The position numbers and the translations under genes were made by a program. A model generated the notes under the pieces. The model was not told where the DNA came from and searched no databases. It was given only the letters and a program-made list of their open reading frames with translations. From Bacteroidia bacterium (lineage in GTDB: Bacteria; Bacteroidota; Bacteroidia; Bacteroidales; VadinHA17), in assembly GCA_026391555.1 (NCBI GenBank), contig JAPLEB010000099.1:1-41319 (forward strand): a stretch of DNA of 41,319 bases, written 5' to 3'. Below, piece after piece: positions 18,202 to 33,832 of the stretch. How positions within the stretch are numbered: the first letter of the stretch is position 1; the number at the start of each line of letters is the position of its first letter.

Positions 18202-18867
18202 TCAGACAATTAATTTTCCTTCCTTGAGCCTTAATCGTCGCGACATTTTTTTTGCCAGATCAACCGAATGAGTGGCAAGAATTAGCGTTATGCCATATTC
18301 TCTGTTCATTTCAAGAAGAAGCTCCCCGAGAATATCAGCATTCTTTGCGTCCAGTGAACCTGTGGGTTCATCGGCAAGCAGTATTGAAGGATTATTGGCT
18401 AATGCTCTCACCAGTGCCACACGCTGTGCTTCTCCTCCTGATATTTGGAATGGATATTTGCCGGCCAAATCAGAAATACCGGTCTTTTCCATAAGTTTGT
18501 TTATGTGCTGCTCTCTCTTTGCAAGTTCATCGCTTGAATATCTTGCAGCAAGCAAAGGAAGAAGTATGTTCTCCGATACAGTCAGATATGGTAGTAATAA
18601 ATGATCCTGGAAAACAAACCCGATATTCCTGTTTCTGTAAACAGCCGACTCATCGTCATTAAATTTAGCAATTGAAGCACCCTTGAAAGTGATCTCCCCG
18701 TTATCTGGTTTATCGAGCAGACCGATAATATTCATCAGTGTTGTTTTGCCTGAACCAGAAGGTCCCATTATTGCAATTAAATCAGCCTCATTAACATCAA
18801 AACTGAGATTATCAAGCACTAAACCTCTCTGAGTGAATGATTTTGATATGTTTCTAATTGCAAGCAT
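18202..18867 (-). CDS. ABC transporter ATPase, LolD/MacB type
   Basis: 221 residues, a single nucleotide-binding domain. Walker A GPSGSGKTT (35-43), Q-loop QDHLLLP (about 87-93), signature ISGGEAQRV (142-150), Walker B ILLADEPTGSLD (162-173) and switch His in LATHS are all intact. The DEPTGSLDA form is typical of the MacB/LolD/FtsE clade. It energises the duplicated permease encoded just downstream. The start is 86 bases after the GT4 stop, in a gap with a degenerate intergenic repeat, so it may form a separate transcription unit from the redox operon. Confidence 0.94.
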   Translation of the reverse strand: MLAIRNISKSFTQRGLVLDNLSFDVNEADLIAIMGPSGSGKTTLMNIIGLLDKPDNGEITFKGASIAKFNDDESAVYRNRNIGFVFQDHLLLPYLTVSENILLPLLAARYSSDELAKREQHINKLMEKTGISDLAGKYPFQISGGEAQRVALVRALANNPSILLADEPTGSLDAKNADILGELLLEMNREYGITLILATHSVDLAKKMSRRLRLKEGKLIV

Positions 18868-18953: not shown

Positions 18954-20249
18954 TCATTTTGAAATGACTCCATTATAAACTTCTGATAAACCTTCAGACA
19001 TTTTATCGAGTGAAAGTTCTTCTGTTACTTTTTTTCGTCCATTCTTCCCAAATTGTTCACGTAGGTTATTATCCTTAAATAATTTCAACAGGTTAGCTGA
19101 TAATTCTGAAACGGTATCAGGTGAATAGGTAATTCCTCCTTCTGTCTTTTCAATTAATTCAGGAAATGCGCCTGTTGCAGGCTGAACAACAGGAATACCT
19201 GCTGTATTGGCTTCAAGAATATAGAGACCGTAACCATCATGTTTTCTGACAGGGACACTCATTATATCGATATTGCTGAAAAATTCCTGTTTACTGTTAC
19301 CCTGGAATTCAGGATAAATTCTAATAAAGGTTTTAAGTCCATGTGCTTTTATTTTCTTTATCTGGTCAGCTATGAAGGGTTTATCATCATCGGTATATCC
19401 CCCTGATACATGAAGTGTTAGCCCGGGTAAACTGTTTCCTGATCTGAGTTCAATTAATGCGTCAACAAGTTTGTCAAATCCATTCTGAGAGCTGATCCGG
19501 CAATAATACCCGACTGCCGGGTAATTATTTCTTTTTTGGACAATGTTTAAGTTTCCGGAATCAATTCCAAGGGGAATAACATGAAAGTTTTTACCGGAAA
19601 TTCCGGTTTTCGATATAAACAATTCCTTATAATAGTTGCTGGGTGTTACAAAGGCATCAACATTTACTGCCTCTTTTGATATTAATTTCCAGGCTTTTGA
19701 CTGATAAGGCTCAGCCATCTCATCAATCCAGTCATCCTCATTGAGTAGGGAGCAGACAATTTTTACATCCATTCTTTTTTTGAGTTGATGGGCCAGCCCT
19801 ATAATGAGTGCATTTGACAAATGGATAATATCAGGTTTCCCATCCTTAGTAAGGTACTTAATGAGCCGTTGTAATTCTTTTTCAGGAAAGACATTTTCTC
19901 CTCTTATCATGTTTAATGTCAGGTCTTCAAGCCCTTCGGTACGTGTCGTTCCAGCCCGGCGCGCAGCCATTTTCAGCAAGAGAGCAGAGTCAAAAAATTT
20001 ATCAAAGAATACGGGCATATTCCTGAATAATGGAACTTTCTCTCTCAGGTACATCGATATAGCACCAAAGAAAACATTTTTGCCAAGGCCGGTTTCAATA
20101 TTAGTCTTGTCCGGTGGCAGATATAATGGTATAGCAGTGGCAGTAATCCCGCGAACCTTGCGGATTGCTCTAAGGTAAATCATGTCGCGATAACAATTAC
20201 CACAATAAAATGATCCCCCGGAACCTGTTATCAAATATACAATTTTCAT
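18954..20249 (-). CDS. GT4-family glycosyltransferase
   Basis: 431 residues. GT-B fold with an N-terminal acceptor domain that starts KIVYLITGSGGSFYCGNC and a C-terminal donor domain holding YYCRISSQNGFDKLVDAL and the GT4 nucleotide-sugar motif EANTAGIPVVQPATGAFPELI (read as E-x7-E spaced Glu residues). It transfers a sugar from a nucleotide donor; acceptor unknown. Its ATG overlaps the stop of the upstream propeller gene by 4 bases, so it is translationally coupled to a redox operon, an odd place for a glycosyltransferase. It could glycosylate one of the exported proteins or an envelope glycan, but nothing in the sequence proves this. Confidence 0.9.
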   Translation of the reverse strand: MKIVYLITGSGGSFYCGNCYRDMIYLRAIRKVRGITATAIPLYLPPDKTNIETGLGKNVFFGAISMYLREKVPLFRNMPVFFDKFFDSALLLKMAARRAGTTRTEGLEDLTLNMIRGENVFPEKELQRLIKYLTKDGKPDIIHLSNALIIGLAHQLKKRMDVKIVCSLLNEDDWIDEMAEPYQSKAWKLISKEAVNVDAFVTPSNYYKELFISKTGISGKNFHVIPLGIDSGNLNIVQKRNNYPAVGYYCRISSQNGFDKLVDALIELRSGNSLPGLTLHVSGGYTDDDKPFIADQIKKIKAHGLKTFIRIYPEFQGNSKQEFFSNIDIMSVPVRKHDGYGLYILEANTAGIPVVQPATGAFPELIEKTEGGITYSPDTVSELSANLLKLFKDNNLREQFGKNGRKKVTEELSLDKMSEGLSEVYNGVISK

Positions 20250-21376
20250 TTTTTCAAAACTGTTTTTTCTGCGAATGAAAACAACCTTCCATCTTCAGTC
20301 AGGATGTAAAACTTTCCTTTTATTATCGCAGGAGAGCTACTAATAGGTGTTCCAGCATTGAAACTCCAAAGTTTTTTTCCATCAGCCAATCCGAGAATAT
20401 AAATATGGCCATCCATACCGGTAAAAAGGATTTTTGTGGATGTTATTACGGCAGAACCTGTTATGGGACCATTGGTTCTGTATTTCCATAATAATTTTCC
20501 ATCAGAAGCATTGTAACAATAAAGGTATTTATCTTCACTTCCAACTACAACTGAATTATTCCCAATTGCCGGAACATCCATAATTGCACCGGAATCTTCA
20601 CCAGGCGAAATTCTCCAGACTATTTTTTTGGATATTAAGTTTAAACAATAAATGGTGCCGTCATAATCTCCGAAATATGCCAAATCGTGTGAAAGGGCAG
20701 GAGAAGCGGCGATATAAACACCTATGTTGATTGTATCTTTTTGTTTCCCTGTCAATGGCTCAACTATCCTTATCAGACCATCGCATCCGCCGAATATTAT
20801 CTTTCCGTTAAGAATAGCTGGCGTTCCGTTTATGTAATTTTCAGTCTCAACTTTCCAGAGAGATTTCCCGGTTTCAGGATCAACGCAATGGAGGAAATAA
20901 TCATAACTTCCTACTACGATTCCTGATTTATTGCCTGCCATCCAAAAATTTGCCGATCCTGCAATCTGGTTATCTGTAGTATATGACCAAAGTAACTTAC
21001 CGGTAACCTTTTCAACAGCTCTAAGCACACCATCGGTTGAGCCAAAAATTATTTTTTTACCAAAAACAATAGGAGCGGCATCAATCGCGCTACCGGCTTC
21101 ATACCGCCATTTAATCTTTCCCTCAGCACCCACTGCAATCAAAGTACCCTTATCGTTTCCAAAAAATACAGTTCCTTCGCTGATAACCGGTGACGATTTT
21201 GTTTTGGCACTTGTTGAGATGCTCCATAAAAGTTGCGGAGCAACAGGAAGTTCAAATTCAGATTTACCTGAAAGATCAGTGTTCCCCCTGAATAAAGGCC
21301 ATTCATCGTCTCCTGACTGTGCTTCTATATAGGAAAAGTATAATAAGAAAAGGGTGATTAGTAAAGAGTGTCTCAT
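20246..21376 (-). CDS. Secreted PQQ-fold beta-propeller protein
   Basis: 376 residues. Signal peptide about 1-19 (FLLYFSYIEAQ), then WPLFRGN and about seven to eight repeats of roughly 40 residues with the tryptophan-docking pattern (GKLLWSY, GKSLWKV, GKLLWKY, GKKLWSF). This is the PQQ-like/BamB-type propeller. No cytochrome-c motif, adjacent-Cys ring or other catalytic features of true quinoprotein dehydrogenases are seen, so PQQ binding is not implied. The gene sits 10 bases after the HydA-like gene and overlaps the GT4 gene by 4, firmly inside the operon. Likely periplasmic; role in the redox system unknown. Confidence 0.88.
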   Translation of the reverse strand: MRHSLLITLFLLYFSYIEAQSGDDEWPLFRGNTDLSGKSEFELPVAPQLLWSISTSAKTKSSPVISEGTVFFGNDKGTLIAVGAEGKIKWRYEAGSAIDAAPIVFGKKIIFGSTDGVLRAVEKVTGKLLWSYTTDNQIAGSANFWMAGNKSGIVVGSYDYFLHCVDPETGKSLWKVETENYINGTPAILNGKIIFGGCDGLIRIVEPLTGKQKDTINIGVYIAASPALSHDLAYFGDYDGTIYCLNLISKKIVWRISPGEDSGAIMDVPAIGNNSVVVGSEDKYLYCYNASDGKLLWKYRTNGPITGSAVITSTKILFTGMDGHIYILGLADGKKLWSFNAGTPISSSPAIIKGKFYILTEDGRLFSFAEKTVLKK

Positions 21377-21386
21377 TAAATATTAA

Positions 21387-22478
21387 TTACTTCATTTGAC
21401 TTAATGCACCTGTCGGACAAATCGCAATAACTTCTTTGCTTCTGTTTTTCAATATGTTATCGAATTCTTCAGTAAGCGGTTCTGATATTATGCTCACGAA
21501 TCCTCTATGCATAAAGCAGAGAGCAGGTTCTTCCTTCAATTCTTCGCATAACCTGACACAAAGACCACATTTTATACATTTTGTATTTTCAAATATCAGG
21601 CCGGTGTTATGATTTATCTTTTTTGTAATAGGAGAATTAACGAGTTTTCCTCTTGGGTCTTTAATGGAAAATTCTTCTGCAAGGTCCCTTAACCTGCAAT
21701 CGTCAGCAGCACGGCAATCGCAATGCATGCAACTTTCTGCCTCGCCAACAGCAGAATTTTTATTAAGTATCTCCCTGGATCGAAGCACTTTACCTTTACA
21801 TTCTTTTAACCATTCCTGTAATTCTGTTTCTTCCAGTCTGCCAATGTGAGATGTGAACCGTTTAGGTAATTTCCCTTTTTTAGGTCCATTCTCTATAACT
21901 ATGTCATTATTATGATGTTGTTCGGCCATATCCTGAAACAGGTTATCCGGAATAATCCTTTGTGAAATAAACAATTGTAAATTCCGGATTGAAACAGGCA
22001 TATCAACTTTCTTTCTACGGCATGCATTCTCGCAATAGCCGGGGCATTTGGTACACATGATCCCGGCTGAATTAAGCTCTGACATGGAGAGTTTAATCGC
22101 AGCCTCAAAATCCTGTGCAGCTAAAAGTCTGTTCATCAAAGGGATATTGTAACCGGCAGGACAAACAATTTTGCATGGAGCTTCACATTCGGCCCGATGT
22201 TCTGCCAACAGAAGTTCAATGGCTTTTCTTCTCAGCGAAGTCACCTCTTCTCCGGAAATATCGATGTCCATACCTTCCTGAACCAAAGCTGAACATGATG
22301 GTATAAAACCATTTGTGCTGTTGTCTTTTACTATGCATACCATACATGAAGAATAATGAGGTAAACCATCCTTATGGCAAAGTGTAGGAATATTGAATCC
22401 TGCACTTTTGGCAACATCCAGAATGGTTAATCCTTCCGGAGCTTCAAAATAGATATTATTAATTTTTATCTTAACCAT
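21387..22478 (-). CDS. HydA/NuoG-like Fe-S electron-transfer subunit without catalytic domain
   Basis: 363 residues. An N-terminal [2Fe-2S] ferredoxin domain (C34, C45, C48, C62) is followed by a GltD-like cysteine-rich helical domain (C98, C102, C106, C142, C145, C149, C153), a further Cys group (C250, C253, C255, C261) and a C-terminal 4Fe-4S segment (C301, C304, C307, C311 and C354 in ICPTGAL). This corresponds to the N-terminal wiring of HydA, NuoG or NAD-linked formate dehydrogenase, but it stops before any H-cluster or molybdopterin domain. It should therefore relay electrons rather than carry out chemistry. The start overlaps the NuoEF-fusion gene by 8 bases, implying a stoichiometric complex with it. 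Confidence 0.85.
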   Translation of the reverse strand: MVKIKINNIYFEAPEGLTILDVAKSAGFNIPTLCHKDGLPHYSSCMVCIVKDNSTNGFIPSCSALVQEGMDIDISGEEVTSLRRKAIELLLAEHRAECEAPCKIVCPAGYNIPLMNRLLAAQDFEAAIKLSMSELNSAGIMCTKCPGYCENACRRKKVDMPVSIRNLQLFISQRIIPDNLFQDMAEQHHNNDIVIENGPKKGKLPKRFTSHIGRLEETELQEWLKECKGKVLRSREILNKNSAVGEAESCMHCDCRAADDCRLRDLAEEFSIKDPRGKLVNSPITKKINHNTGLIFENTKCIKCGLCVRLCEELKEEPALCFMHRGFVSIISEPLTEEFDNILKNRSKEVIAICPTGALSQMK

Positions 22479-24879
22479 TGATATTTATTATTTCAATAGC
22501 ATTCTCAGGACAAACAATTCTACAGTTGTCACATTTTGTACATAACTGATTATCAATTTCATGCTTTTCATAAGGGTTGAATGGAATAGCATTTACCGGA
22601 CATTCCTGTGAGCATTTGGTACAACCATTGCAATCATCAGTAACAACATATCTGATGAGATTTCTGCATTTTTTTGCAGGACAGAATCCCCGGGTATGAG
22701 CTTCATACTCATCCCTGAAATATCTAAGTCCAGTGAGCACAGGATTTGGAGAGGTTTTCCCAAGTCCGCATAAACTGCCGTCCTTTACAGATTTACAAAG
22801 ATTCTCTAGTTCATCTATATCAGAAAGAGCCGCTTTGCCTTCACTCAAACTGGTAATTATATTCAGCATCTGTGTAGTTCCAATTCTGCAAAATGTACAT
22901 TTTCCACATGACTGTTTATGAGTGAATGTAAGAAAATATTTTGCCATATCAACCATGCAGTCTGTATCGTCGAGTATAACCATTCCTCCCGATCCCATCA
23001 TTGCTCCCATTCTTGTAAGTTCTTCATAATCAATGGGTGTGTCAGCTTCACTTGCAGGAATACATCCACCTGAAGGTCCGCCAATCTGGACCGCTTTAAA
23101 CTTTCTGCCTTCAGCAACCCCATCACCAATCTTTTCAACTATCTCTCTTATTGTTATCCCCATAGGAACTTCAATAAGACCTCCTTTTGATATCTTACCG
23201 GCAAGAGCAAATACCTTCGTTCCCTTGCTCTTTTCAGTCCCTATCGATCTGAAAGTTTCAGCTCCGTTAGTAATGATCCATGGAACCAGTGAAAGAGTTT
23301 CAACATTATTAACTAGTGTAGGCTGGCCTCTGAAACCTTTCACAGCAGGGTAGGGTGGCCTTAAATGTGGAGTTCCGCGCTTACCTTCCAGTGAATATAT
23401 TAATGCAGTCTCTTCACCACAGACAAAGGCTCCGGCACCTTCAAAAATCTTTATATTAAATGAGAATCCGGAACCAGAAACACTTTCTCCCAAAATACCT
23501 TTTTCATAGCACTGTTTCAGAGCATTTCTGACCCTTGTAACCGCAAGCGGGTACTCTGCCCTGATATAAAAAATGCCTTCTTTAGAACCTGTTGCATAGC
23601 CAGCAATAATCATGCCTTCGACAACCCTGTACGGAAATGATTCCAGCAACATCCTGTCCATAAACGCACCCGGATCTCCTTCATCACCGTTGCAGACAAC
23701 ATATTTTAAATCACTGCTTGTCACCATAGAGATTCTCCATTTTTTGCCTGTCGGGAATCCTGCTCCACCTCTTCCTCGTAATCCACTTTCTGTTATAATA
23801 TCAACTATAGCATTCTGATCCAGTCTATTAAAACAGTGATTAAGCGCTTCAAAACCACCTGACAAACAATATTCTTCATAAGAATCCGGTGAAAGAACTC
23901 CACTGTTTTTTGTAGCAAGATGTACCTGATAATTCAGAAAGTTATTGAGATATTTTTCTCTCAACTCGCCCGGAATATTGATCTGGCTTGTTAGCTTATC
24001 ATCAGAAATAAAAGTATCAACCAGGTCATATATATTATGCTTTATTCTTTTGTTTATAGTTCTGGGCCTGATATGTTTAAGTAGTATCTCCTCAACCTGA
24101 TGTTTACTTACATTAGTATACCTTGAATTGATATTTTCTCTTGTAACAATTTCAAGTAAAGGTGTTTGGTTGCACACACCTACACAACCCACCGGCTTCA
24201 ATCGTATGTTGAGATCATACTTTTCTTTTATATCAACTATTTCAGAAAGAATCTCTTTGCTTCCGCCCGCGGCACAACAGGAACCTAAGCCAATCCTGAT
24301 TTCAGCATCAATATCTTTCGAATTATCATCACCATGCAGGCTATCGCTTTTATGACCGGAATTTAGAAAATCGCTTATGATCTCCTCTGTCTGTGTAGGC
24401 TTTACATGACCATAAGTTTTGCCATCGATCTGAACCACAGGTGCCAAAGTGCAACATCCCAGGCAAGCTACCTCTTCAATTGAAAATAGATTGTCAGCAG
24501 AAGTATTCCTTGTATCATCTATTTTAAGCACCCTTTTAAATGCATCGGAAATCAAAGGAGCTCCTTTAACATGGCAGGCGGTTCCTGCACAAATTTTTAT
24601 TGTGTGTTTGCCGGCAGGAATATGCCGAAACTGCGAATAAAATGTTGAGACACCCGATATCTGTTCAGGAGTGATCTCAGTAATTTTACAAATATGTTTA
24701 AGCGCTTCGGAAGGAAGATAATTCAGCTTTTTCTGAACCTCCTGTAGGATCAGAATCACTTTTTCAGGCCCTCTGCCGGTCATTTCAACTACTTCTTCAA
24801 CTACTGCAGTAATTTCATCAACATCAGTTTGTTGGCAGTTGCACCCTTCGGTCATAATATTTATCTCCGCATCTTTCAA
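22471..24879 (-). CDS. Fused NuoE/NuoF (HydC/HydB-like) NADH flavo-iron-sulfur protein
   Basis: 802 residues. Domains in order: NuoE/HydC-like thioredoxin-fold [2Fe-2S] (about 20-175; C97, C102, C139, C143); a second thioredoxin-like [2Fe-2S] (about 195-270; C201/C202, C232, C236); NuoF flavin domain with GRGGAGFPTGKKW (369-381) for FMN and GAGAFVCGEETAL (481-493) for NADH; SLBB; the N3-type [4Fe-4S] (C658, C661, C664, C704); the C733/C738 pair typical of HydB; and two C-terminal [4Fe-4S] clusters (C750-C760, C780-C790). This is HydB with HydC fused in front, the diaphorase core of bifurcating HydABC-type complexes. It oxidises or reduces NAD(P)H in the cytosol. Overlaps with both neighbouring genes (4 and 8 bases) show tight coupling. 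Confidence 0.92.
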   Translation of the reverse strand: MKDAEINIMTEGCNCQQTDVDEITAVVEEVVEMTGRGPEKVILILQEVQKKLNYLPSEALKHICKITEITPEQISGVSTFYSQFRHIPAGKHTIKICAGTACHVKGAPLISDAFKRVLKIDDTRNTSADNLFSIEEVACLGCCTLAPVVQIDGKTYGHVKPTQTEEIISDFLNSGHKSDSLHGDDNSKDIDAEIRIGLGSCCAAGGSKEILSEIVDIKEKYDLNIRLKPVGCVGVCNQTPLLEIVTRENINSRYTNVSKHQVEEILLKHIRPRTINKRIKHNIYDLVDTFISDDKLTSQINIPGELREKYLNNFLNYQVHLATKNSGVLSPDSYEEYCLSGGFEALNHCFNRLDQNAIVDIITESGLRGRGGAGFPTGKKWRISMVTSSDLKYVVCNGDEGDPGAFMDRMLLESFPYRVVEGMIIAGYATGSKEGIFYIRAEYPLAVTRVRNALKQCYEKGILGESVSGSGFSFNIKIFEGAGAFVCGEETALIYSLEGKRGTPHLRPPYPAVKGFRGQPTLVNNVETLSLVPWIITNGAETFRSIGTEKSKGTKVFALAGKISKGGLIEVPMGITIREIVEKIGDGVAEGRKFKAVQIGGPSGGCIPASEADTPIDYEELTRMGAMMGSGGMVILDDTDCMVDMAKYFLTFTHKQSCGKCTFCRIGTTQMLNIITSLSEGKAALSDIDELENLCKSVKDGSLCGLGKTSPNPVLTGLRYFRDEYEAHTRGFCPAKKCRNLIRYVVTDDCNGCTKCSQECPVNAIPFNPYEKHEIDNQLCTKCDNCRIVCPENAIEIINING

Positions 24880-26570
24880 TTATTCGAAATGCAATAAAGG
24901 TTTTTCTTTCCTCTAATATAAATTTTCTTATCAGAAAATGCAGGTGTACAATCGGTCCTTTCCCCCAAAGCTGCTTCCGCCACAAGCTGAAATTCTGATT
25001 TGGCTTTCACAATGTGCATAACACCACTTCTGTCAAGAAGATAAACCATATCATCAGCTATAATAGGTGAAGAATAAAACTGATCCATAAAATAATGTGT
25101 CCAAAGAGTATCACCTTTTCCTGAATTGTAGCAGGCAACATCACCATTCCCTGTAGAAATGAATAAAAAATCATCAGTAGCGACAGGGCTGGAAACATCC
25201 GGAGTATAGGTGTTATCTTCCCATATTATTGATGCTCCTGTACCAGGTTTGACCGCAGCAAGTTTAGCATAATCAGTTACTGCAAAAGCCATAGTGCTGT
25301 TTACTGCTACCGATGGAGCAACATCGCCGGTAAGGCATTCTATTGCCCATAATTCCTTGCCAGTTGACGGATCATAACTGCTGACCATTGGATTTCCATT
25401 AAGAATCACCTGTGGTTTGCCTTCGAAATATGCCAGTACAGGGGATGACCAGACAGCACGTCCCTGCCGCAGGGTTTCCCACTTCTGTTCACCTGTTTCA
25501 ATATCAAACCCTATTAACGATATCTTTACTTCACTATCGTATTGAACGAGCAGCAGATTTTGATAAATTATCAGGGAAGAGGAATATCCATAAATACTTT
25601 CGGGAACGCCTATGTTTTTTGCCCATTTCTGCTTTCCATCCATGTCGAAGCAAATAAGGGTGCCATTTGCAAAAATTGCACATACTTCTTTGCCATTTGT
25701 AGCCACAGTTGATACTGCAAGGCCGGCTTCCTGATCCATTTTTGGTAACACTGTTGGTTCTCCGGGAATATTTGATGCAGAGCCAATCCACAGAATATCA
25801 CCAGTTTTTTTATTAATACAATAAACTTCACACTCCATATCCTGAGCTCCGGTAATAAAAATCTTATCGCCCCATATAACCGGAGAACTCTTTCCTTGTT
25901 TGGGTATCTGAATTTTCCAGTGTATGTTTTTTCCGGCAACACCATCCCATTCGGTTGGATAACCGCTTCCTCCGGCTACTCCACGACTATCCTGGCCACG
26001 AAAAAACGGGAAATTTGTTTTATCAGGTTTTGGGGCAGTTTTGTTACCTTTTTCTTCTGTATTGGCAGAGGTACCTGATTTCCCCGAGAGATCAGGAAGG
26101 TCGGTACGGAGAATAAATGAAGCTATTATAGCTGTTAAGGAAATAACAGAAGCAGTTGTTATAAGATATTTTCTGCTCTTTTTTTGTTGAAGAGAAGGAT
26201 TATATTTTGTTCCGGGGAGGATAGGGTTCAGTTTTTCATGGTTTGAAATGAGTCTCTGACAAAAAATGAAGACGATAGCGCCAGCCAGCAGAAGGTATGA
26301 GCCTGTTTCAGCCTGCCATCTTGAAGAAAAGTAAGCTTTCCTGGCCATTAGATCCAATGCTCTTACCTGCTCAGCTTTTGCAGCATCAGCCGGATCCTTA
26401 TCGTACTGATCCTTAACTGAAAGCAATACCGGATTGTCTAAAGGATTAATGGTTTTCAATTGTATCAGGCTGAATATCATTGTCAAAGCAACAACAAGAG
26501 TAAAACCTCCCGCTACCTGGCTGATCCCCTTAAGAATACTGATATCTTTTTCAGTTAAGTTTAGCTTCAT
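24876..26570 (-). CDS. Membrane-anchored PQQ-fold beta-propeller protein
   Basis: 564 residues. Three membrane helices (about 15-37, 90-108, 135-153) precede a linker rich in Lys, Thr and Asn and then a PQQ-like propeller (about 185-564) beginning FPFFRGQDSRG. Blade motifs include GDILWIG, GEQKWET and GKELWAI. The propeller should face the periplasm. No haem-binding motif or adjacent-Cys ring was noted. The gene starts one base after the stop of the NapH-like gene and overlaps the NuoEF-fusion start by four, so an anchored propeller is produced together with both the membrane and the cytosolic redox parts. It may be a docking scaffold between them; this is inference. Confidence 0.88.
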   Translation of the reverse strand: MKLNLTEKDISILKGISQVAGGFTLVVALTMIFSLIQLKTINPLDNPVLLSVKDQYDKDPADAAKAEQVRALDLMARKAYFSSRWQAETGSYLLLAGAIVFIFCQRLISNHEKLNPILPGTKYNPSLQQKKSRKYLITTASVISLTAIIASFILRTDLPDLSGKSGTSANTEEKGNKTAPKPDKTNFPFFRGQDSRGVAGGSGYPTEWDGVAGKNIHWKIQIPKQGKSSPVIWGDKIFITGAQDMECEVYCINKKTGDILWIGSASNIPGEPTVLPKMDQEAGLAVSTVATNGKEVCAIFANGTLICFDMDGKQKWAKNIGVPESIYGYSSSLIIYQNLLLVQYDSEVKISLIGFDIETGEQKWETLRQGRAVWSSPVLAYFEGKPQVILNGNPMVSSYDPSTGKELWAIECLTGDVAPSVAVNSTMAFAVTDYAKLAAVKPGTGASIIWEDNTYTPDVSSPVATDDFLFISTGNGDVACYNSGKGDTLWTHYFMDQFYSSPIIADDMVYLLDRSGVMHIVKAKSEFQLVAEAALGERTDCTPAFSDKKIYIRGKKNLYCISNN

Positions 26571-26571
26571 T

Positions 26572-27837
26572 CTAAGCTTTTATTATAATAGGACAATATT
26601 TAAAACACCTCCCGCAACTATAACACTTTCCCTGATGTGGTTTGTATTCATTTATCTTACTTTTGATTGTAAGAGATATCATTCCGATTACGAAGGAAAT
26701 CCCCAGGAACACACCTGCCCAGGGAGAGGCTTTTCTGAACCGGCTGATGATTATTTCTTCTTCCGTAAATAATTCTGCTTCTGTTTTTCCCGATTCTTTA
26801 AATGCAACCACAGCTTTTGAAACAGATTCAATTCCTGTTTCCTTTTCAATTCTAATCTCTCTTGCCAGGTTGACATTACTGTTTACACCTGCCAGAGCAG
26901 GAGCAAGGTTGTATAAGATATAAGCACCTGCTATCGTGAATAGTGGCATAAGCAGGAAGTATAATATGAACCGCTTTCTCGGTTTTTCAGGTTCTTCCCT
27001 TTTTTGATCTGTCCCGGAAGGAATTATAGCATTATAAGGACAAGCCTCTTCACAAAGTCTGCAATTTGTACATTCTGCGGGAGTTATTGTAAGATGCTTA
27101 CCGGCAAACCTGGAAAAAACATTTAGTAAAACGCCGTAAGGGCAGAGGTATCTGCAATACGGCCTGTTAACAAATATACCCGCTAAGAGCAAAAGGGCAC
27201 CAAAGATTATCATTGTATAAGGTGCATCGAGTCTGAAAATCCCAACGAAAGGATCGTATCGGCAAATTATAAACTGACTGTTTGTAGAGGCAAAAAGTAT
27301 TGCAAGAGCCAAATAAATGAATGGAACTGATGCAAAAATAATCTCTGCTGTTTTTGGAAGTTTGACTGGTTTAAACCCGGTGAGTTCCTGAATAGCTCCA
27401 AGGGGACATACCCCCGCGCAAAATACCCGCCCGTAAGCAAGAGCAAAAAGAAGAGGGATTATAAAGAATAACAGGGCAGAGAGAGGAATTGTATAGCTAT
27501 CGTTGAAAAGCGCCAGCGAAACATTCTGCACCGATCCAACGGAACAGATGCAACCCTGTCTGTAAAATCCAAAATATGCAAGGGAAAACACTGACATCCA
27601 AATCAATCCCTGTCGTGAACGCTTTTTCAATGCCAGCCAGGTGGTTATTGTCAAAGCAACGAGCAAAACAGCAACATCAAAGTATTCCCACATCGGTCCG
27701 CGCTGGTTAGGGAGCTGATTGGCAGGGTAGGTATAACCTGATTCAAATTCAGGTCGGGGAAACCTTTGTTGCGCAAACAGTATTGATTGCCATGCAAATA
27801 GGAATATCAGGATAATATATGGAACAAACTTCTTCAA
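26572..27837 (-). CDS. NapH/NosR-like membrane iron-sulfur protein
   Basis: 421 residues. A leader or helix at 1-22, then about six more helices. Family motifs are present: GCICSVGS (C96, C98), FCAGVCPLGAIQEL (C140, C144), ICRYDPFVGIFR (C192), and YCRYLCPYGVLLN (C228, C232). One ferredoxin-type cluster follows (C256, C259, C262, C266) and another at the C-terminus (C405, C408, C411, C415). NapH and NosR relatives pass electrons between quinol or soluble carriers and periplasmic proteins. The cysteine set suggests up to two cytosolic [4Fe-4S] clusters plus membrane-edge sites. It lies between the exported ferredoxin gene (11 bases) and the anchored propeller gene (1 base), so it is the obvious membrane conduit of this operon. 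Confidence 0.88.
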   Translation of the reverse strand: MKKFVPYIILIFLFAWQSILFAQQRFPRPEFESGYTYPANQLPNQRGPMWEYFDVAVLLVALTITTWLALKKRSRQGLIWMSVFSLAYFGFYRQGCICSVGSVQNVSLALFNDSYTIPLSALLFFIIPLLFALAYGRVFCAGVCPLGAIQELTGFKPVKLPKTAEIIFASVPFIYLALAILFASTNSQFIICRYDPFVGIFRLDAPYTMIIFGALLLLAGIFVNRPYCRYLCPYGVLLNVFSRFAGKHLTITPAECTNCRLCEEACPYNAIIPSGTDQKREEPEKPRKRFILYFLLMPLFTIAGAYILYNLAPALAGVNSNVNLAREIRIEKETGIESVSKAVVAFKESGKTEAELFTEEEIIISRFRKASPWAGVFLGISFVIGMISLTIKSKINEYKPHQGKCYSCGRCFKYCPIIIKA

Positions 27838-27848
27838 CTTTTATCTTT

Positions 27849-28418
27849 TTACTTTTGTCTTTTATCTTTCTGCATATATTCATCCTTTGCAAGAATTCTT
27901 ATAACAGCATCCGATGGGCAGGTGCGGGCAATTGAACATTCATTGCAGTTTACACACCGATCATGTCGGATCTGCATATATAATGAGCCATTTCCAAAAT
28001 CAGCACAACCCTTCACGCATTTTGCACAGCCATCGCAAAGATCCTCAATAATTGTATATTCAAAATATGGCTCTTCTACAAATTTTCTCGTAATGGCTCC
28101 GGTAGGGCATAGCTGGTTTTCGGCTCCTGTGCTGACCGTTTTTACTCCCTGACGGAGGTAACCTCCACACAGGTCACAGTAACCACACATCTGGAAAGCA
28201 TGCACACATTTTGATGCCGAAGGTGTTAAAACACAATTGGTCTTACATTGACCACACTGTGTGCATTTAAACGGATCGATCTGCCAGACATAACCGGATG
28301 CTGAAGTTTTCTTAGCAAGAGCAACCGGAATTAATGCAAAAGGAACAATAATTGCAAGTTTCCCGGCTCTCCTCACAAAATCCCTCCTCGATTGATATTT
28401 ATTCTTTCCTTCGTTCAT
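27849..28418 (-). CDS. Tat-exported polyferredoxin, NapG/NrfC-like
   Basis: 189 residues. A twin-arginine signal (SRRDFVRRAGK, then a hydrophobic stretch to about 35) marks folded export to the periplasm. The mature part has four cysteine groups: C52, C55, C58, C62; C71, C78, C81, C84 with C104 in LCPTGAI; C128, C131, C134, C138; and C155, C158, C161, C167. This fits about four [4Fe-4S] clusters, as in NapG/NrfC/DmsB-type electron-transfer subunits. It should dock on the NapH-like protein encoded next. It starts 11 bases after the small Cys4 protein gene, placing it second in the operon. Confidence 0.88.
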   Translation of the reverse strand: MNEGKNKYQSRRDFVRRAGKLAIIVPFALIPVALAKKTSASGYVWQIDPFKCTQCGQCKTNCVLTPSASKCVHAFQMCGYCDLCGGYLRQGVKTVSTGAENQLCPTGAITRKFVEEPYFEYTIIEDLCDGCAKCVKGCADFGNGSLYMQIRHDRCVNCNECSIARTCPSDAVIRILAKDEYMQKDKRQK

Positions 28419-28429
28419 TCTTCCTGTAT

Positions 28430-28594
28430 TTAGTAATTATTACAGTCTGTTTTTCCCTTGCAAATCCCATTTCCAGGACATTTTGAGCAATCTTTGTCTG
28501 ATTCAATGCGGTTTCCCAAAGCAAGTAAAATCAGAGAAAGTAAGGCAAGAAGACCAAAACGAATCAGTTTCTTAAAAAATTCAACTCTTGTCAT
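28430..28594 (-). CDS. 54-residue membrane protein with four cysteines, first gene of the redox operon
   Basis: A short frame with ATG at 28594 and TAA at 28430. The product has a basic start (TRVEFFKKLIRF), one membrane helix (FGLLALLSLILLALG, about 13-27) and a short tail bearing C36, C39, C45 and C51 (CSKCPGNGIC...TDC), which by the positive-inside rule faces the periplasm. The four Cys could hold an Fe-S or zinc site or form disulfides; there is no CxxCH haem motif. It ends 11 bases before the Tat-ferredoxin start. The size, single helix and Cys spacing next to two Fe-S electron-transfer genes argue that it is a real accessory subunit. No family name known to me. Confidence 0.7.
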   Translation of the reverse strand: MTRVEFFKKLIRFGLLALLSLILLALGNRIESDKDCSKCPGNGICKGKTDCNNY

Positions 28595-28690: not shown

Positions 28691-29905
28691 CTATTTTGCG
28701 GCTATATCATATACCATCAGCGATGTACCATGTCTGACATATAGCTTTTTATCTTTAATAACAAGGTGTGCCCAGTGTGGATTGGCGCCAAAAGGAACTG
28801 GGAATGAACTTAATATATTGAAACCATTAGTTTGTGGTTCTATGAGGGATACCTTGCCAGACTCACTATAAATATATAATAATCCATCGTTCGCGATAAT
28901 ATTAGCAGGAGCCATATCTTTTATTGAATAGAGTTCATTTCCTGTTTGCCAGTCAATACAGAACAGACTGCGATTTCTGTCACCTGTACCATAAATCCGA
29001 TCGTTAAAAACAACAACACCTCCCATTCTGGGGTCAAGGGATTTGTTACGCCACAATTCAGCGACGGAGCTACCGTCGGCAGAAAGTTTTAACATAACAC
29101 CACCCTGACCATAACCGCTTGTACAATAAAGATTGCCATCTGCAAAAACAGGAACATTCGGATGAACAGACCATTCATTGGGCTGTGGATGTTTCCATAG
29201 GAATTTTCCTGTCGAAGCATCAATACCCTGGATTGAATTTTCCATCATCGTTACTATGATTTTACGATTTGGCAATGTAATAAGTAAGGGTGAACAATAA
29301 GCTGATTTTTCACCATTACCCTTGCTTTTCCATATAAGTTTCCCAGTACTAAGTTTTAATGCTATAACATTTGCGTCGACCCCTCCGGGGCTACAGAATA
29401 GTGTATTTCCATCAAATAGTAAATTTTCTGTTACACCCCATTTAATATTCCTGCCATCGTACTGCTTTTGCAGGTCTATTGTCCAGATATTCTTGCCGTT
29501 AGAAATATTCATGCATACCAGTTTCCCGAACGAGCTCATTAAGAAAAGTTTATCATTGACAATTAATGGGGTTGATCTTACACCATTCCAGTTTTCGGTC
29601 CATTCCTTTCCATAATCCTTCTTCCAGAGAAGTTTCCCGTAATTGTTAAATGCAAAAACATAACCTGTCTCATTTATCATACCTGTAGTTAAAATTACCG
29701 AACCTGTTGTAGCAACAGAGGTATGGCCTTCACCCAGCTCATCAAAATGCCAAATTAGTTTTGGGCCTGCATCGGGCCATTTTTTGAGCAAGCCGGTTTC
29801 ATTATAAATCCCATTACGGCTTGGTCCTCGCCATTGTGCTATCTTCTGAGCATTTGCACTAATGCAAATCATTGATAATATGAGTGGTAAGAAGATTTTG
29901 TTCAT
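28691..29905 (-). CDS. Secreted PQQ-fold beta-propeller protein
   Basis: 404 residues. Signal peptide 1-19 (cleavage after ISANA), then the opening QWRGPSRNGIYNETGLLKKW, which is shared almost word for word with the propeller encoded at 32540-33796, marking the two as paralogues. Blade motifs GKLLWKK, GKNIWTI, GKLIWKS and GKFLWKH follow, and the protein ends with a VRHGTSLMVYDIA strand that matches the other's VRHGDYLAVYSLK. Periplasmic or cell-surface; no catalytic motif. It lies 96 bases upstream of the redox operon's first gene on the same strand and has a good promoter candidate of its own. Confidence 0.88.
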   Translation of the reverse strand: MNKIFLPLILSMICISANAQKIAQWRGPSRNGIYNETGLLKKWPDAGPKLIWHFDELGEGHTSVATTGSVILTTGMINETGYVFAFNNYGKLLWKKDYGKEWTENWNGVRSTPLIVNDKLFLMSSFGKLVCMNISNGKNIWTIDLQKQYDGRNIKWGVTENLLFDGNTLFCSPGGVDANVIALKLSTGKLIWKSKGNGEKSAYCSPLLITLPNRKIIVTMMENSIQGIDASTGKFLWKHPQPNEWSVHPNVPVFADGNLYCTSGYGQGGVMLKLSADGSSVAELWRNKSLDPRMGGVVVFNDRIYGTGDRNRSLFCIDWQTGNELYSIKDMAPANIIANDGLLYIYSESGKVSLIEPQTNGFNILSSFPVPFGANPHWAHLVIKDKKLYVRHGTSLMVYDIAAK

Positions 29906-30055: not shown

Positions 30056-30979
30056 TTATTTCCGTTTAAATATATAAAGTTTAGAGTCAGCAGGATTGGC
30101 TGCATAAATAGTTTTTCCATCTACAGAAGCCAGATCCAAAGGTACTGAAGCCATGAACTTGTTTTTCGAGGAAACATATTCAATAAATTCTCCGGTTTTA
30201 CTGAGTATCTTTATCCTGTTAATCCCTTTCTCGGCGGTAGCGAATCCATTCGGAATAACAATGAAATGAGCAGGATTGCAGCACCCGCAGAATGCTCCCG
30301 GAGCTGTGCCTGGTTCTCCAAAACAACTTTTTAATACGCCTTCAAAAGTTCTTGACTCAACTCTTCTATGACCGGTATTTGCTATAAATATAGTATTGTC
30401 AGAATCCAGCGCAACGTCGAAGTAGGGACTGGGGATAATAAATTGTCCGTCATTCTGACCAAGCAGTTTTTTAACTATTCCTTTTTTATCAAGAATAAAT
30501 ACCATTTTGTTCCCGGCATCTGCGAAAGCAACGTATGAACTATTGGCAGAAACAGAAGTAATAATTCCTTTATCTTCAAACGGACCCCATTCATCTTTGA
30601 TTTTTCCTTCTGAACTGATTATCAGTATCAATTCTATTGTAGATGCAAAGATTGTATCACCATAATTTGTAAGTGAAGTAATTGGATAGGGAGTTTTAAG
30701 GTTCCATTTTAATTTTAGATCCTTATCATAGCGCGATACGAATGAATCTCCACCGATGTAAATATCACTGTCAGATGAAACGGTTACAGCTTTAAGTGAT
30801 CCATTATTAACTGCTAATTCACCGGAAATCTTCCAGGCATTGGGCAGGGAGTCATTATTACCGGTGGTTTTAACTTCATTTTTTTCATAACCTCCAGACC
30901 TTAAAGAATCAATAATCATATATCCAATAAAGACGACTATGATTAAAACTGAAAATAATGTTAAAAGCTTCTTATTCAT
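30056..30979 (-). CDS. Membrane-anchored NHL-like beta-propeller with CxCC motif
   Basis: 307 residues from the ATG at 30979; a TTG 18 bases upstream is in frame but overlaps the preceding gene and is less likely. An N-terminal helix (LFSVLIIVVFIGYMII, about 8-23) anchors a periplasmic propeller of six-bladed NHL type, recognisable by phrases such as DNTIFIANTGHRRV and GFATAEKGINRIKILSKTG. An unusual F-C-G-C-C-N-P-A-H segment (C231, C233, C234, H238), with C219 nearby, could bind a metal or form disulfides. It follows the 486-residue propeller gene by 4 bases, so the two are co-transcribed. Function unknown; a sensor or scaffold role is possible. Confidence 0.82.
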   Translation of the reverse strand: MNKKLLTLFSVLIIVVFIGYMIIDSLRSGGYEKNEVKTTGNNDSLPNAWKISGELAVNNGSLKAVTVSSDSDIYIGGDSFVSRYDKDLKLKWNLKTPYPITSLTNYGDTIFASTIELILIISSEGKIKDEWGPFEDKGIITSVSANSSYVAFADAGNKMVFILDKKGIVKKLLGQNDGQFIIPSPYFDVALDSDNTIFIANTGHRRVESRTFEGVLKSCFGEPGTAPGAFCGCCNPAHFIVIPNGFATAEKGINRIKILSKTGEFIEYVSSKNKFMASVPLDLASVDGKTIYAANPADSKLYIFKRK

Positions 30980-30983
30980 ATTG

Positions 30984-32441
30984 TTACTTTTTCCCAATGT
31001 TAAGGCATAATAGATTTCTTGAATCCCTCATAATGAGGTAATTACCGGCAATAGCCATAGGCCCCCAAGCCTCTATTCCATTAAGAACCTTATGACTTGT
31101 CAACAGAATAACACTGTTCTTTTGAATTCCAAAAAGATATAATTTACCATCATCATCGAGAAGGAACATTTTATCTCCGCTAACAATATAGGGTCCCAAT
31201 CCGCGACCAAATCTATTTTCTTTACCACTTGACCAGACAGATGTCAGCAGGTCTGATTTTTTATAACAAACAAGCTGTTTCTTGAGAGGGCCTGCATTCT
31301 CAGGCATCAGGCTCCAGATGTAATCTCCGATAATTACCGGTGTTTGCTGGTCGCTCGAAATTCCATTTGTTGCTTTATGCTTTTCCAGAACAGAAGCCGT
31401 ATATCCTGATCCCTCAGCGTTAATTCTGATTCTTGCACCACCTGCTCCATAACTTCCGAAAACAGCAATTTCATTATTCCCGAGAAAGAGGGGTGAAGCT
31501 GCAACTGTTGCCGGACTCCAGTCAGTTGTCTTCCACATCAGCTTTCCGGTATCATTCCCTTCGGCAGATACACCACATACCCCTCCAACAGCATTATAAA
31601 TATACATTCTTTTTCCATGTATAATCATTGGCATGATTGATCCATGCGACATTCTTAAGGAATCAGGGTTTGGTGTTTCCCAGATAACTTTGCCAGTGGC
31701 ACAATCAACACCGATCATTAAAGCTTTTCCTCCCGGAGCTATAACAGCTACATCTTTATCTATCAATGGGCATTGACCAGTATAAAAATCAGGTGTTATT
31801 CTACCTTTCTCTTTTCCTGGTATCCCAAATTCTTTTTCGAGATCAATTGTCCATAACAGATTACCATTCAGAGGATCGAGGCACATCACATGTGACCGCG
31901 GACCTATTGACACAAGATATTTATCAGTAACAGCAGGGATCGTTCTTGAATATCCATGGTTCCGCTTCAGTTCAACATAATACCAGCGCCTCCATAATTC
32001 TACACCTGACTTAAGAGAGAAACATCTCAGCATGTCAGCTTTTTTTCTTTCGTTATAATCAAGGAGATATACTCTTCCATTATGAACAGCCGGGCCGGCA
32101 TATCCTTCACCAAGGGTGGTTCTCCAGATGACAGCAGGTCCAGAAGTATCCCAGGTCTCAGCAAGGGGAGTTGTGTCTTTACTTATATTTTCAAAATCGA
32201 CTCCTCTGAACCTGGGCCAATCACCGGCAACTAATTCATCAAGTTTAGCAATTGTGTCAAGAAACTCTCCAATTATTACGGTGTCGGATATGGCTTCCAT
32301 TTTTGGCCTGTTATCCATTCCGGGAACTCTCTCAGTAACCTCAAATGTCTGATCTTTGAGTATCCACCATAAAAGAACTATTGCGAAAGCTGCAACAACG
32401 ACCCCGATAATTATTGAATAATTCTTTATTAATGATAACAT
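30984..32441 (-). CDS. Membrane-anchored PQQ-fold beta-propeller protein
   Basis: 485 residues from the ATG at 32441 (a TTG three bases earlier extends the frame by one). GAAAGAG sits just upstream as a possible ribosome site. One N-terminal membrane helix (IIIGVVVAAFAIVLLWWIL, about 11-29) is followed by a ~65-residue spacer and a propeller that begins GDWPRFRG. Blade motifs include GVELWRRW, GNLLWTI and GKVIWET. It is more diverged than the 28691 and 32540 pair. The propeller should face the periplasm. Together with the downstream NHL protein it forms a two-gene unit of anchored propellers. Confidence 0.86.
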   Translation of the reverse strand: MLSLIKNYSIIIGVVVAAFAIVLLWWILKDQTFEVTERVPGMDNRPKMEAISDTVIIGEFLDTIAKLDELVAGDWPRFRGVDFENISKDTTPLAETWDTSGPAVIWRTTLGEGYAGPAVHNGRVYLLDYNERKKADMLRCFSLKSGVELWRRWYYVELKRNHGYSRTIPAVTDKYLVSIGPRSHVMCLDPLNGNLLWTIDLEKEFGIPGKEKGRITPDFYTGQCPLIDKDVAVIAPGGKALMIGVDCATGKVIWETPNPDSLRMSHGSIMPMIIHGKRMYIYNAVGGVCGVSAEGNDTGKLMWKTTDWSPATVAASPLFLGNNEIAVFGSYGAGGARIRINAEGSGYTASVLEKHKATNGISSDQQTPVIIGDYIWSLMPENAGPLKKQLVCYKKSDLLTSVWSSGKENRFGRGLGPYIVSGDKMFLLDDDGKLYLFGIQKNSVILLTSHKVLNGIEAWGPMAIAGNYLIMRDSRNLLCLNIGKK

Positions 32442-32539
32442 CAACTCTTTCAGCTATATGAAATACACTATTTTTATATCTGGCGTCAACGATACTATTT
32501 GATATGCAATTCTTAAAAAATTTGCAAGAGTGTTAAAAT

Positions 32540-33796
32540 TTATTTTAACGAGTAAACAGCAAGATAATCGCCATGCCGAACAATGAGTCTTCCTTTATCA
32601 ATAACAGGATGAGCCCAGTAAGGACCAATTCCTTTTGTAACCATAAATTCGCTTACAACATCAAGTTTTTCGCTTCCTGGTTTAACCAATCCCACATGAC
32701 CTGTTTTTTCCTCATAAAGATAAAGCATTCCGTCGGCGGAGATAATTGACCCTTTGTTGTACCAATCTGTTACCCACATTGTTTTTCCGGTGTTCCAGTC
32801 CACACATATCCATCTGCCTTTGGAATTTGTATCATGAGTCGAGCTATAGATATAGTTGCCAAGGAGTACCATACCTCCTATATGTGGATTTATGTCCGGG
32901 TTCTTCCAGACTAACTCAGGTTCTGTACCGTCAAAATTAATTTTAATCTTTACTGCAGTCTGTCTATAACCATTTGCTGCAAACAGAAATCCATCGCGGT
33001 AAATGGGAGTATTAATATAATTCCTTCCACCGGTCTTCTGTTCAGCATTGATGGCTTCAAAATTGAATTTCCAAAGAAGTTTCCCGTTTTTTGAGTTTAC
33101 GCCGATTATATGTGTAGCAGTATGAGTAACTATTATTTTAATTCCATTGTTTTCAATAAGCAATGGATTAACATAATTTGTTCCTTCATTCAAAGATGGA
33201 CTCTCCCAAACCACTTTACCATTTTCCGCATTAAAAGCGACCATAGCTGCCTTATTACCACCAGGGGTTCCTATTACCTTATTATCAACTACTAAAGGTG
33301 ATTCAGATATACCAAATCGTGGTGTTTCGGCATCATATTTCTGGAAATAATTCACTGACCATATTATTTTTCCGTCTTTTCCAACACAAACCATATCGCC
33401 CTGTCCGCTTACAAGGAAAAGTTTACCATTAGAATAAGTCGGAGTACAACGACTTTCAGTATAGTTGCTTGTTGTGGTAGAATTCCCATATATTACCTCC
33501 CAGTTTTTCTTCCCGTCCTGGCTGAAAGATGTCAAAACATCATTTTCGCCTTTTTTCCCGGTAATATAAATTGCATCAGCAGTAACAGTAGCACTGGAAT
33601 ACCCGGTTCCTATCTCTGTGGCTTCCCAAAGTAAAGAAGGACCTGAAGAAGGCCATACTTTTAACAATGCAGACTCATTATAAATGCCTGACCTGTCAGC
33701 TCCGCGCCAACCATTTTGTGGTTGTGATAAGGAAATGCCTCCTGAAATCAGAATTACTGCTGCCAATAGTTTTGTTCTCTTATCAAATAATTTCAT
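32540..33796 (-). CDS. Secreted PQQ-fold beta-propeller protein
   Basis: 418 residues from the ATG at 33796 (KLFDKRTKLLAAVILISGG), which gives a clean signal peptide. The frame is open upstream through two more ATGs (33805, 33814) and a TTG (33832), which would add a charged tail before the leader. The mature part starts GWRGADRSGIYNESALLKVW and runs through repeated blades (GKKNWEV, GKIIWSV, GKVVWES, GKLLWKF, GKTMWVT). Paralogue of the propeller at 28691-29905. First gene of the minus-strand block; 98 bases separate it from the next propeller gene. Role unknown. Confidence 0.86.
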   Translation of the reverse strand: MKLFDKRTKLLAAVILISGGISLSQPQNGWRGADRSGIYNESALLKVWPSSGPSLLWEATEIGTGYSSATVTADAIYITGKKGENDVLTSFSQDGKKNWEVIYGNSTTTSNYTESRCTPTYSNGKLFLVSGQGDMVCVGKDGKIIWSVNYFQKYDAETPRFGISESPLVVDNKVIGTPGGNKAAMVAFNAENGKVVWESPSLNEGTNYVNPLLIENNGIKIIVTHTATHIIGVNSKNGKLLWKFNFEAINAEQKTGGRNYINTPIYRDGFLFAANGYRQTAVKIKINFDGTEPELVWKNPDINPHIGGMVLLGNYIYSSTHDTNSKGRWICVDWNTGKTMWVTDWYNKGSIISADGMLYLYEEKTGHVGLVKPGSEKLDVVSEFMVTKGIGPYWAHPVIDKGRLIVRHGDYLAVYSLK

Positions 33797-33832
33797 AAAT
33801 ACCATAAATACCATTTTTAAATGAAATCGCAA

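Follow-up and report, generated by a model that had tools for sequence, protein, structure and literature searches.

Enzymes of the Bfu family share a set of cluster ligands in the subunits BfuB and BfuC. In NiFe-Bfu, the B2 cluster ligands are C438, C476, H525, C531, and C536, and the B2 histidine, according to the main text of Schut et al. (2022, PMC9304861), is absent from non-bifurcating relatives and from just 8 of 1558 BfuB sequences. By a term search of that main text, none of the third-substrate types of the family involves NapH-like proteins or propellers. The Stn and Nfn-Bfu transhydrogenases (8oh5, 9bov, 9n5u) have the same flavin mononucleotide (FMN)/NADH/iron-sulfur (Fe-S) core and a related BfuA subunit. 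In the NapGH, NosR, and MauMN conduits, a membrane protein resembling NapH and an exported Fe-S protein occur next to periplasmic proteins of repeat fold. The nos clusters contain NosR, the ABC proteins NosFY, and the propeller NosZ, so an ABC transporter is present there too. In this study, the 41,319-nucleotide contig JAPLEB010000099.1 (GCA_026391555.1) of a Bacteroidia bacterium (VadinHA17; genome of 3.5 Mb, 96% complete) was analyzed; the window is the whole contig. A conserved unit of about 14 genes on the minus strand, from 33832 down to 14917, combines a Bfu-type core with a NapH-like protein, an exported polyferredoxin, and several propellers. The unit may encode an inner-membrane redox complex that connects two cytosolic pools, NADH and ferredoxin, with membrane-anchored propellers in the periplasm, a reading that we regard as evenly poised.

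A first-pass annotation of the window had described eight genes on one strand at 18954–28594, with gaps of −8 to +11 bases. All eight open reading frames (ORFs) were confirmed on the minus strand at these positions, and the gaps recomputed from the coordinates were +11, +11, +1, −4, −8, +10, and −4. Searches of the ORFs with Pfam/NCBIfam-type models agreed with its domain reading. The interval was drawn too small for the system, because three propeller genes and an NHL-like gene upstream, and an ABC ATPase gene and an FtsX permease gene downstream, recur alongside the eight. The ABC transporter, the NHL-like protein, and the extra propellers are members of the system (Table 1).

The conservation of the unit was investigated in two sets of loci. 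The NapH-like protein was searched over 295 genomes of the same order and matched in 66 genomes at E ≤ 1e-20. Forty-seven of these were counted as carriers (best E 5.8e-66 or better, at least 42% identity, fragments included). The 19 weaker matches (E 1.6e-29 to 7.4e-21, 27–38% identity) were left out; one of them, in G226, is short, lies at a contig end, and may be a true fragment. The order set consisted of NapH neighbourhoods from 40 of the 46 other carrier genomes. For the collection set, a genome collection was scanned with 12 aligned polyferredoxins and the best 80 of 90 loci were used, so the phyletic spread is a lower bound. Adjacency was counted only at places with room on the contig. 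The two sets share assemblies and are not independent.

The gene order was kept closely. In the order set and the collection set, respectively, the anchored propeller of the 30984 type was followed by the NHL gene at 30/30 and 67/68 places, the NHL gene by the polyferredoxin gene at 35/35 and 67/68, and the polyferredoxin gene by NapH at 37/37 and 72/73. NapH was followed by the 24876-type propeller at 36/40 and 64/67, and this propeller by the BfuC-BfuB fusion (BfuCB) at 28/34 and 57/60. BfuCB was followed by BfuA at 27/30 and 41/53, and some of the misses were fusions or inserted genes. The later steps were BfuA to the secreted 20246-type propeller (24/24 and 30/38), this propeller to the GT4 gene (18/23 and 15/26), GT4 to the ATPase (16/17 and 1/3), and the ATPase to the permease (18/18 and 12/13). 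Among the 295 genomes, NapH was present in 47, the 30984-type propeller in 49 (E 6.3e-69 or better), and both in 45 (p = 7e-46, uncorrected for kinship). The NapH carriers without a propeller match were G256 and G263 (78–79% complete). Where the propeller occurred without NapH, it stood at a contig end in G136 and G164; in G270 it lay close to a contig end, with an unrelated gene after it. The first-pass annotation had named conserved co-occurrence with propellers as a check, and this was found in both the adjacency counts and the presence patterns. The proposal of a conserved system in which propellers join an NADH module and a NapH-like membrane Fe-S protein is supported.

Bacteroidota share the core gene order with at least ten other phylum-level labels, under which it is complete or partial. 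Besides Bacteroidota, the record titles name Verrucomicrobiota, Lentisphaerota, Planctomycetota, Armatimonadota, Aminicenantes, Spirochaetales, Hydrogenedentes, Sumerlaeota, Poribacteria, and Chitinispirillia. Gene content varies: most parts are seen in L127 (Spirochaetales) and L120 (Aminicenantes), and only some parts, within the stretch covered, in L125, L131, L144, and L145. Each of four groups lay on one side of a branch in a tree built from 55 BfuCB proteins: Bacteroidota (support 90/96), Verrucomicrobiota, Planctomycetota, and Lentisphaerota. Armatimonadota fell on two sides. Long branches and uneven composition were flagged for this tree as a whole. Most carriers in the collection are metagenome-assembled genomes. 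Records titled as strains also have the system, namely Draconibacterium sediminis, Gaoshiqia sediminis, Sunxiuqinia elliptica, Marinifilum flexuosum, Marinifilum fragile, Labilibaculum sp. K2S, and Oligosphaera ethanolica, so the system is testable in culture.

The first-pass annotation had read the 802-amino acid protein as a NuoE-NuoF fusion. It is an NADH module, with 2Fe-2S_thioredx, Complex1_51K, NADH_4Fe-4S, and Fer4 domains, but its ligand set is that of the bifurcating Bfu/Stn/HydBC core. The best matches among solved structures were to enzymes that bifurcate electrons: NfnB (9n5u, E 1.5e-208), StnB (8oh5), NiFe-Bfu (7t2r), and HydB. In the alignment to 7t2r, the B2 positions of the window protein are C641, S679, H728, C733, and C738; the fifth-ligand position, C476 in NiFe-Bfu, is thus a serine. 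Ligands were counted in 77 BfuCB sequences of 740–1100 amino acids, window included and shorter pieces left out. The four B2 ligands C641, H728, C733, and C738, including the diagnostic histidine, were present in 77/77, as were the BfuC [2Fe-2S] ligands C97, C102, C139, and C143 and the eight C-terminal ferredoxin cysteines (B3/B4; two [4Fe-4S] motifs). One B1 cysteine was present in 73/77 and two N-terminal cysteines in 71/77. The window protein therefore has the BfuBC ligand set of the Bfu family (PMC9304861), B2 histidine included. Since this is the ligand set of an electron-bifurcating core, ferredoxin is probably also a partner of the module. BfuCB is 968–1040 amino acids long in Lentisphaerota-type loci, and in L148 it ends in a NuoG-type Fe-S region. 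The host genome is rich in related NADH modules, with four more NuoF-type proteins (contigs C50, C118, C49, and C159; L001 and L003–L005) and five FeFe-hydrogenase matches.

The next subunit, called HydA-N-like in the first-pass annotation, is an Fe-S protein with Fer2_4, Fer4_20, and Fer4_Nqo3 domains. It belongs with the StnC/NfnA-type subunits, as judged by the homologue in L084, and its NADP(H) part is missing. The long L084 homologue aligned to residues 4–287 and then 425–671 of StnC, and residues 288–424 were skipped. The skipped stretch falls within the domain of StnC that PMC10482914 describes as GltD-like and NADPH-binding. Among 73 BfuA homologues, 56 had at least 480 amino acids, 14 had 320–369 (window protein, 363), and three were fragment-like. 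The flavin Rossmann domain is also gone in the window protein and the short forms, which include gut lineages. A simple GxGxxG pattern for this domain, not a trained predictor, matched 47/73 homologues and missed some full-length ones. In 63 sequences of 300–580 amino acids, eleven Fe-S ligands were present in 63/63 and eight in 62/63; C142, C311, and C321 of the window protein were cysteines in only 7–15 of the 63. Unlike in the FeFe hydrogenase HydABC, an H-cluster domain was not found: a domain search gave no Fe_hyd_lg_C match in the window BfuA, and NCBIfam hydrogenase models matched only far below cut-off, in its N-terminal Fe-S part. The system thus differs from Stn and Nfn-Bfu in the absent NADP(H)-binding part (L084 homologue) and flavin Rossmann domain (window protein), and in added membrane and periplasmic Fe-S partners.

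The membrane and exported Fe-S proteins were compared in 51 loci, and a column was called near-invariant when identical in at least 97%. NapH had 15 near-invariant cysteines and the polyferredoxin 16. The RR motif near the N-terminus of the polyferredoxin was invariant in the 12 aligned sequences. A small CxnCxxCxnC protein preceded the polyferredoxin in 58/117 loci and was fused to it in six more, two of them probably the same contig; none was found by pattern in the other 53 (loci overlap between the sets). The pattern and the anchor rule used for the propellers are simple rules, not trained predictors. The Cys4 mini-protein is a real gene. The window NapH scored 68.2 bits against an NCBIfam NapH cut-off of 213.05 and 59.3 bits against a cut-off of 1000 for full-length NosR, and in the PDB it gave only weak matches, to ferredoxin-type proteins. 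Compared with NapGH, NosR, and MauMN, it is extended at the C-terminus, where a further Fe-S motif is conserved, and the system would receive its electrons from a bifurcating complex in the cytosol. Among the recurrent neighbours, no subunit of NapA, NosZ, or Mau type was noticed.

The propellers of the locus gave PQQ_2/ACSF4 domain matches. In the same 51 loci (29 for the 28691 type), the numbers of near-invariant columns were 76/473 for the 30984 type (32 polar), 48/585 for the 24876 type (14 polar), 25/366 for the 20246 type (8 polar), 16/316 for the NHL-type protein (7 polar), and 16/402 for the 28691 type (2 polar). Conserved stretches of the 30984 type are RNHGxSR, GQC, MSHxS, QQTP, GLGP, and WxP. 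They appear to sit where new blades start and would face the central channel in this fold. By the simple rule, an N-terminal hydrophobic stretch was found in 91/103 homologues of the 30984 type and in 93/103 of the NHL type. In the PDB, the NHL-like protein matched generic NHL, designed, and WD-type propellers, which was uninformative for its function. The anchored propeller at 30984–32444, outside the first interval, is the best candidate for the terminal component, because its near-invariant polar residues outnumber those of the sister propellers and it occurs together with NapH in 45 genomes. The route had been proposed to end at, or be scaffolded by, propellers; they do belong to the system, and a mere scaffold is unlikely given the enzyme-like near-invariant residue set of this one.

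Judging from its ligands, the Bfu-type (HydBC/StnAB-like) bifurcating core with FMN would react with NAD(H) and ferredoxin. BfuA, which shares descent with StnC/NfnA, would use Fe-S contacts to deliver electrons to the NapH/NosR-like membrane protein rather than to NADP+, because the NADP(H)-binding part is absent. NapH would pass them to the exported polyferredoxin and the Cys4 mini-protein, in keeping with the adjacency and fusion of these genes. The anchored propeller at 30984–32444 is the probable acceptor, perhaps with the NHL-type protein, whose vicinal cysteine pair may have a redox role. The LolD/FtsX transporter and GT4 probably aid assembly or export of components or product, by analogy with NosDFY, which serves the NosR/NosZ system. 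The most likely net direction would be from NADH and reduced ferredoxin to periplasmic reduction, although the Bfu core of characterized relatives is reversible.

Several observations weigh against this reading. In the order set, the next propeller did not come after NapH in 4/40 loci, and BfuCB did not come after that propeller in 6/34. L154 (Thermoguttaceae) had polyferredoxin and NapH and no other part within 20 kb. G167 (97% complete) had propellers and the NHL gene, followed by unrelated genes, and no NapH match; the propellers may therefore work without the electron module. The 30984-type profile matched PDB entries weakly (best 6.4e-06) and mostly BamB, which is not a redox protein. FeFe hydrogenases were present in 37/47 genomes with the system and in 163/248 others (p = 0.09), so a role as a replacement electron sink for FeFe hydrogenase was not supported.

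No description of the assembly was found in the literature searched. The core belongs to the known Bfu kind, and these proteins may already be present, unnamed, in one of the clades of Schut et al. Tentatively, and with rather less than even confidence, we propose an undescribed periplasmic redox system of many phyla without cytochromes in the operon. In it, a bifurcating NADH/ferredoxin enzyme would have lost its NADP site and been reconnected, through the membrane, to propeller enzymes of a new class, coupled in some lineages to a dedicated isoprenoid/radical-SAM pathway. If true, this would be a Bfu-type enzyme with its third partner across the membrane, connecting the periplasm with two major electron pools of the cytosol, and would suggest what some of the propellers that resemble pyrroloquinoline quinone (PQQ) proteins do, many of which lack an explanation.

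Table 1. Genes of the conserved unit in the window, in order of transcription (aa, amino acids).
Feature	Coordinates	Strand	Basis
PQQ-like propeller, 430 aa, variable-copy secreted family including 28691–29905	32540–33832	−	stands ahead of the 30984-type gene where testable (22/24 and 34/41 loci)
PQQ_2/BamB-type propeller, N-terminally anchored, 486 aa, candidate terminal/catalytic component	30984–32444	−	conservation, co-occurrence with NapH
NHL-type propeller, N-terminally anchored, 313 aa, conserved GCCNP and EK motifs	30056–30997	−	after 30984-type gene
Secreted PQQ-like propeller, 404 aa	28691–29905	−	domain search, anchor rule
Anchored Cys4 mini-protein, 54 aa, 4 Cys	28430–28594	−	ORF, CxnCxxCxnC pattern
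Polyferredoxin of twin-arginine (Tat) type (RRDF), 189 aa, 16 near-invariant Cys, room for four [4Fe-4S]	27849–28418	−	domains, alignment
NapH/NosR-like multi-pass membrane Fe-S protein, 421 aa, Fer4_5/NapH-like	26572–27837	−	domains, 15 near-invariant Cys
Membrane-anchored PQQ-like propeller, 564 aa, N-terminal hydrophobic segments	24876–26570	−	domains, anchor rule
BfuC-BfuB (HydC-HydB/StnA-StnB) fusion, 802 aa, FMN/NADH and Fe-S	22471–24879	−	domains, PDB relatives, ligands
BfuA-like Fe-S subunit, StnC-like, 363 aa, nucleotide-binding domain absent in this lineage	21387–22478	−	domains, alignment
Secreted propeller, 376 aa, conserved GGCD motif	20246–21376	−	after BfuA gene
GT4-family glycosyltransferase, 431 aa, not found at this place in several lineages	18954–20249	−	glycosyltransferase groups 1/4 domains
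LolD-like ABC ATPase	18202–18867	−	domains, after GT4
FtsX-family ABC permease, 1087 aa	14917–18180	−	domains, after ATPase

Some loci carry a further five-gene set: an Fe-S protein, a radical SAM protein, a DUF116-polyprenyl synthase with two DDxxD motifs, an alpha/alpha toroid protein, and a squalene-cyclase-like protein with a DGDD motif. The operon was found at L126:1640–7555, with similar ones in L108, L116, L129, L142, L155, L172–L176, and L178–L180. The set stands directly upstream of the system, often overlapping, in gut Bacteroidaceae and Lentisphaerota-type loci; it adjoins propellers in L172, L179, L180, and L184 and lies on another contig in L173, L174, L176, and L178. The synthase was present in 11/120 neighbourhoods and in 12/295 genomes. 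Carriers matched at E 1.7e-75 or better with both parts covered (in two pieces in one genome), and three weaker matches to the synthase domain only were left out. The 30984-type propeller was present in 12/12 synthase carriers (p = 1.3e-10) and NapH in 10/12 (p = 2.3e-7). These associations, and the frequent partnership of GT4 and LolD/FtsX with the system, are consistent with a machinery for envelope lipids or glycoconjugates, in which a (poly)isoprenoid-linked product would be made and exported by the propellers, GT4, and the ABC exporter, with the electron module providing reductant for one modification or for maturation. However, the synthase was present in only 10/47 genomes with the NapH system and gave no match in the window's own genome, so the isoprenoid set is not essential; GT4 was also not found at its place in 5/23 and 11/26 testable loci. 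This explanation is unlikely, though it deserves attention, and the isoprenoid/radical-SAM operon is an optional partner of the system. A CobW-like GTPase stands beside the isoprenoid operon at L172:13554–14777 (by eye) and L155:711–1868 (Pfam), perhaps a hint of a metal cofactor. In L173:1–4331, of the same genus, a second ABC transporter-like pair lies upstream of the isoprenoid operon, together with two distant relatives (26%) of the 30984-type propeller.

The electrons could also run the other way, from a periplasmic substrate oxidized at the propeller enzyme to NAD+ and ferredoxin by bifurcation. Bfu enzymes are reversible, several characterized ones bifurcate from a reduced third substrate according to the main text of PMC9304861, and the propeller profile weakly matched quinoprotein dehydrogenases. 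The window propellers lay far below the quinoprotein cut-offs, however: the best score was 69 bits against 480 (20246–21376), and 30984–32444 scored 24 bits. They share the PQQ_2-type fold with PQQ-dependent dehydrogenases and BamB, but are below the family cut-offs, including that of BamB, and have their own near-invariant residue set. The gene pqqC was found in 0/47 genomes, while no control genome gave a match either. The reverse direction is considered rather improbable, and transfer from cytosol to periplasm would remain the preferred direction. That the electron and propeller genes adjoin by chance, or only in this lineage, is rejected as extremely improbable: partial or split loci exist (L154, G167, L042, L047, and L072), but the order is kept over many phyla and the presence patterns of NapH and the 30984-type propeller are near-identical.

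Other catalytic subunits were sought among 471 unassigned ORFs of at least 100 amino acids from the 120 neighbourhoods. The ORFs were clustered by similarity, and families in at least three loci were judged by eye, some by Pfam. No known respiratory or hydrogenase-type catalytic subunit was seen among these recurrent families, and regulators and the radical-SAM/isoprenoid set were seen instead. A conserved catalytic subunit of known type nearby, which the first-pass annotation had named as a finding that would speak against a new system, was thus rejected for the families recurring in at least three loci. Between BfuCB and BfuA, ORFs were inserted in L086, L087, L091, L097, and L100, mutually unlike by eye except those of L091 and L097. 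BfuA was not seen within the L101 stretch, and an extra ORF stands after BfuA in L102. LytTR-like response regulators were noticed by eye near the operon in L048, L076, L078, L084, L116, L126, and L142. They also occur in L173 and L182; these regulators lie near the operon or propeller paralogues, several with a sensor-kinase-like neighbour.

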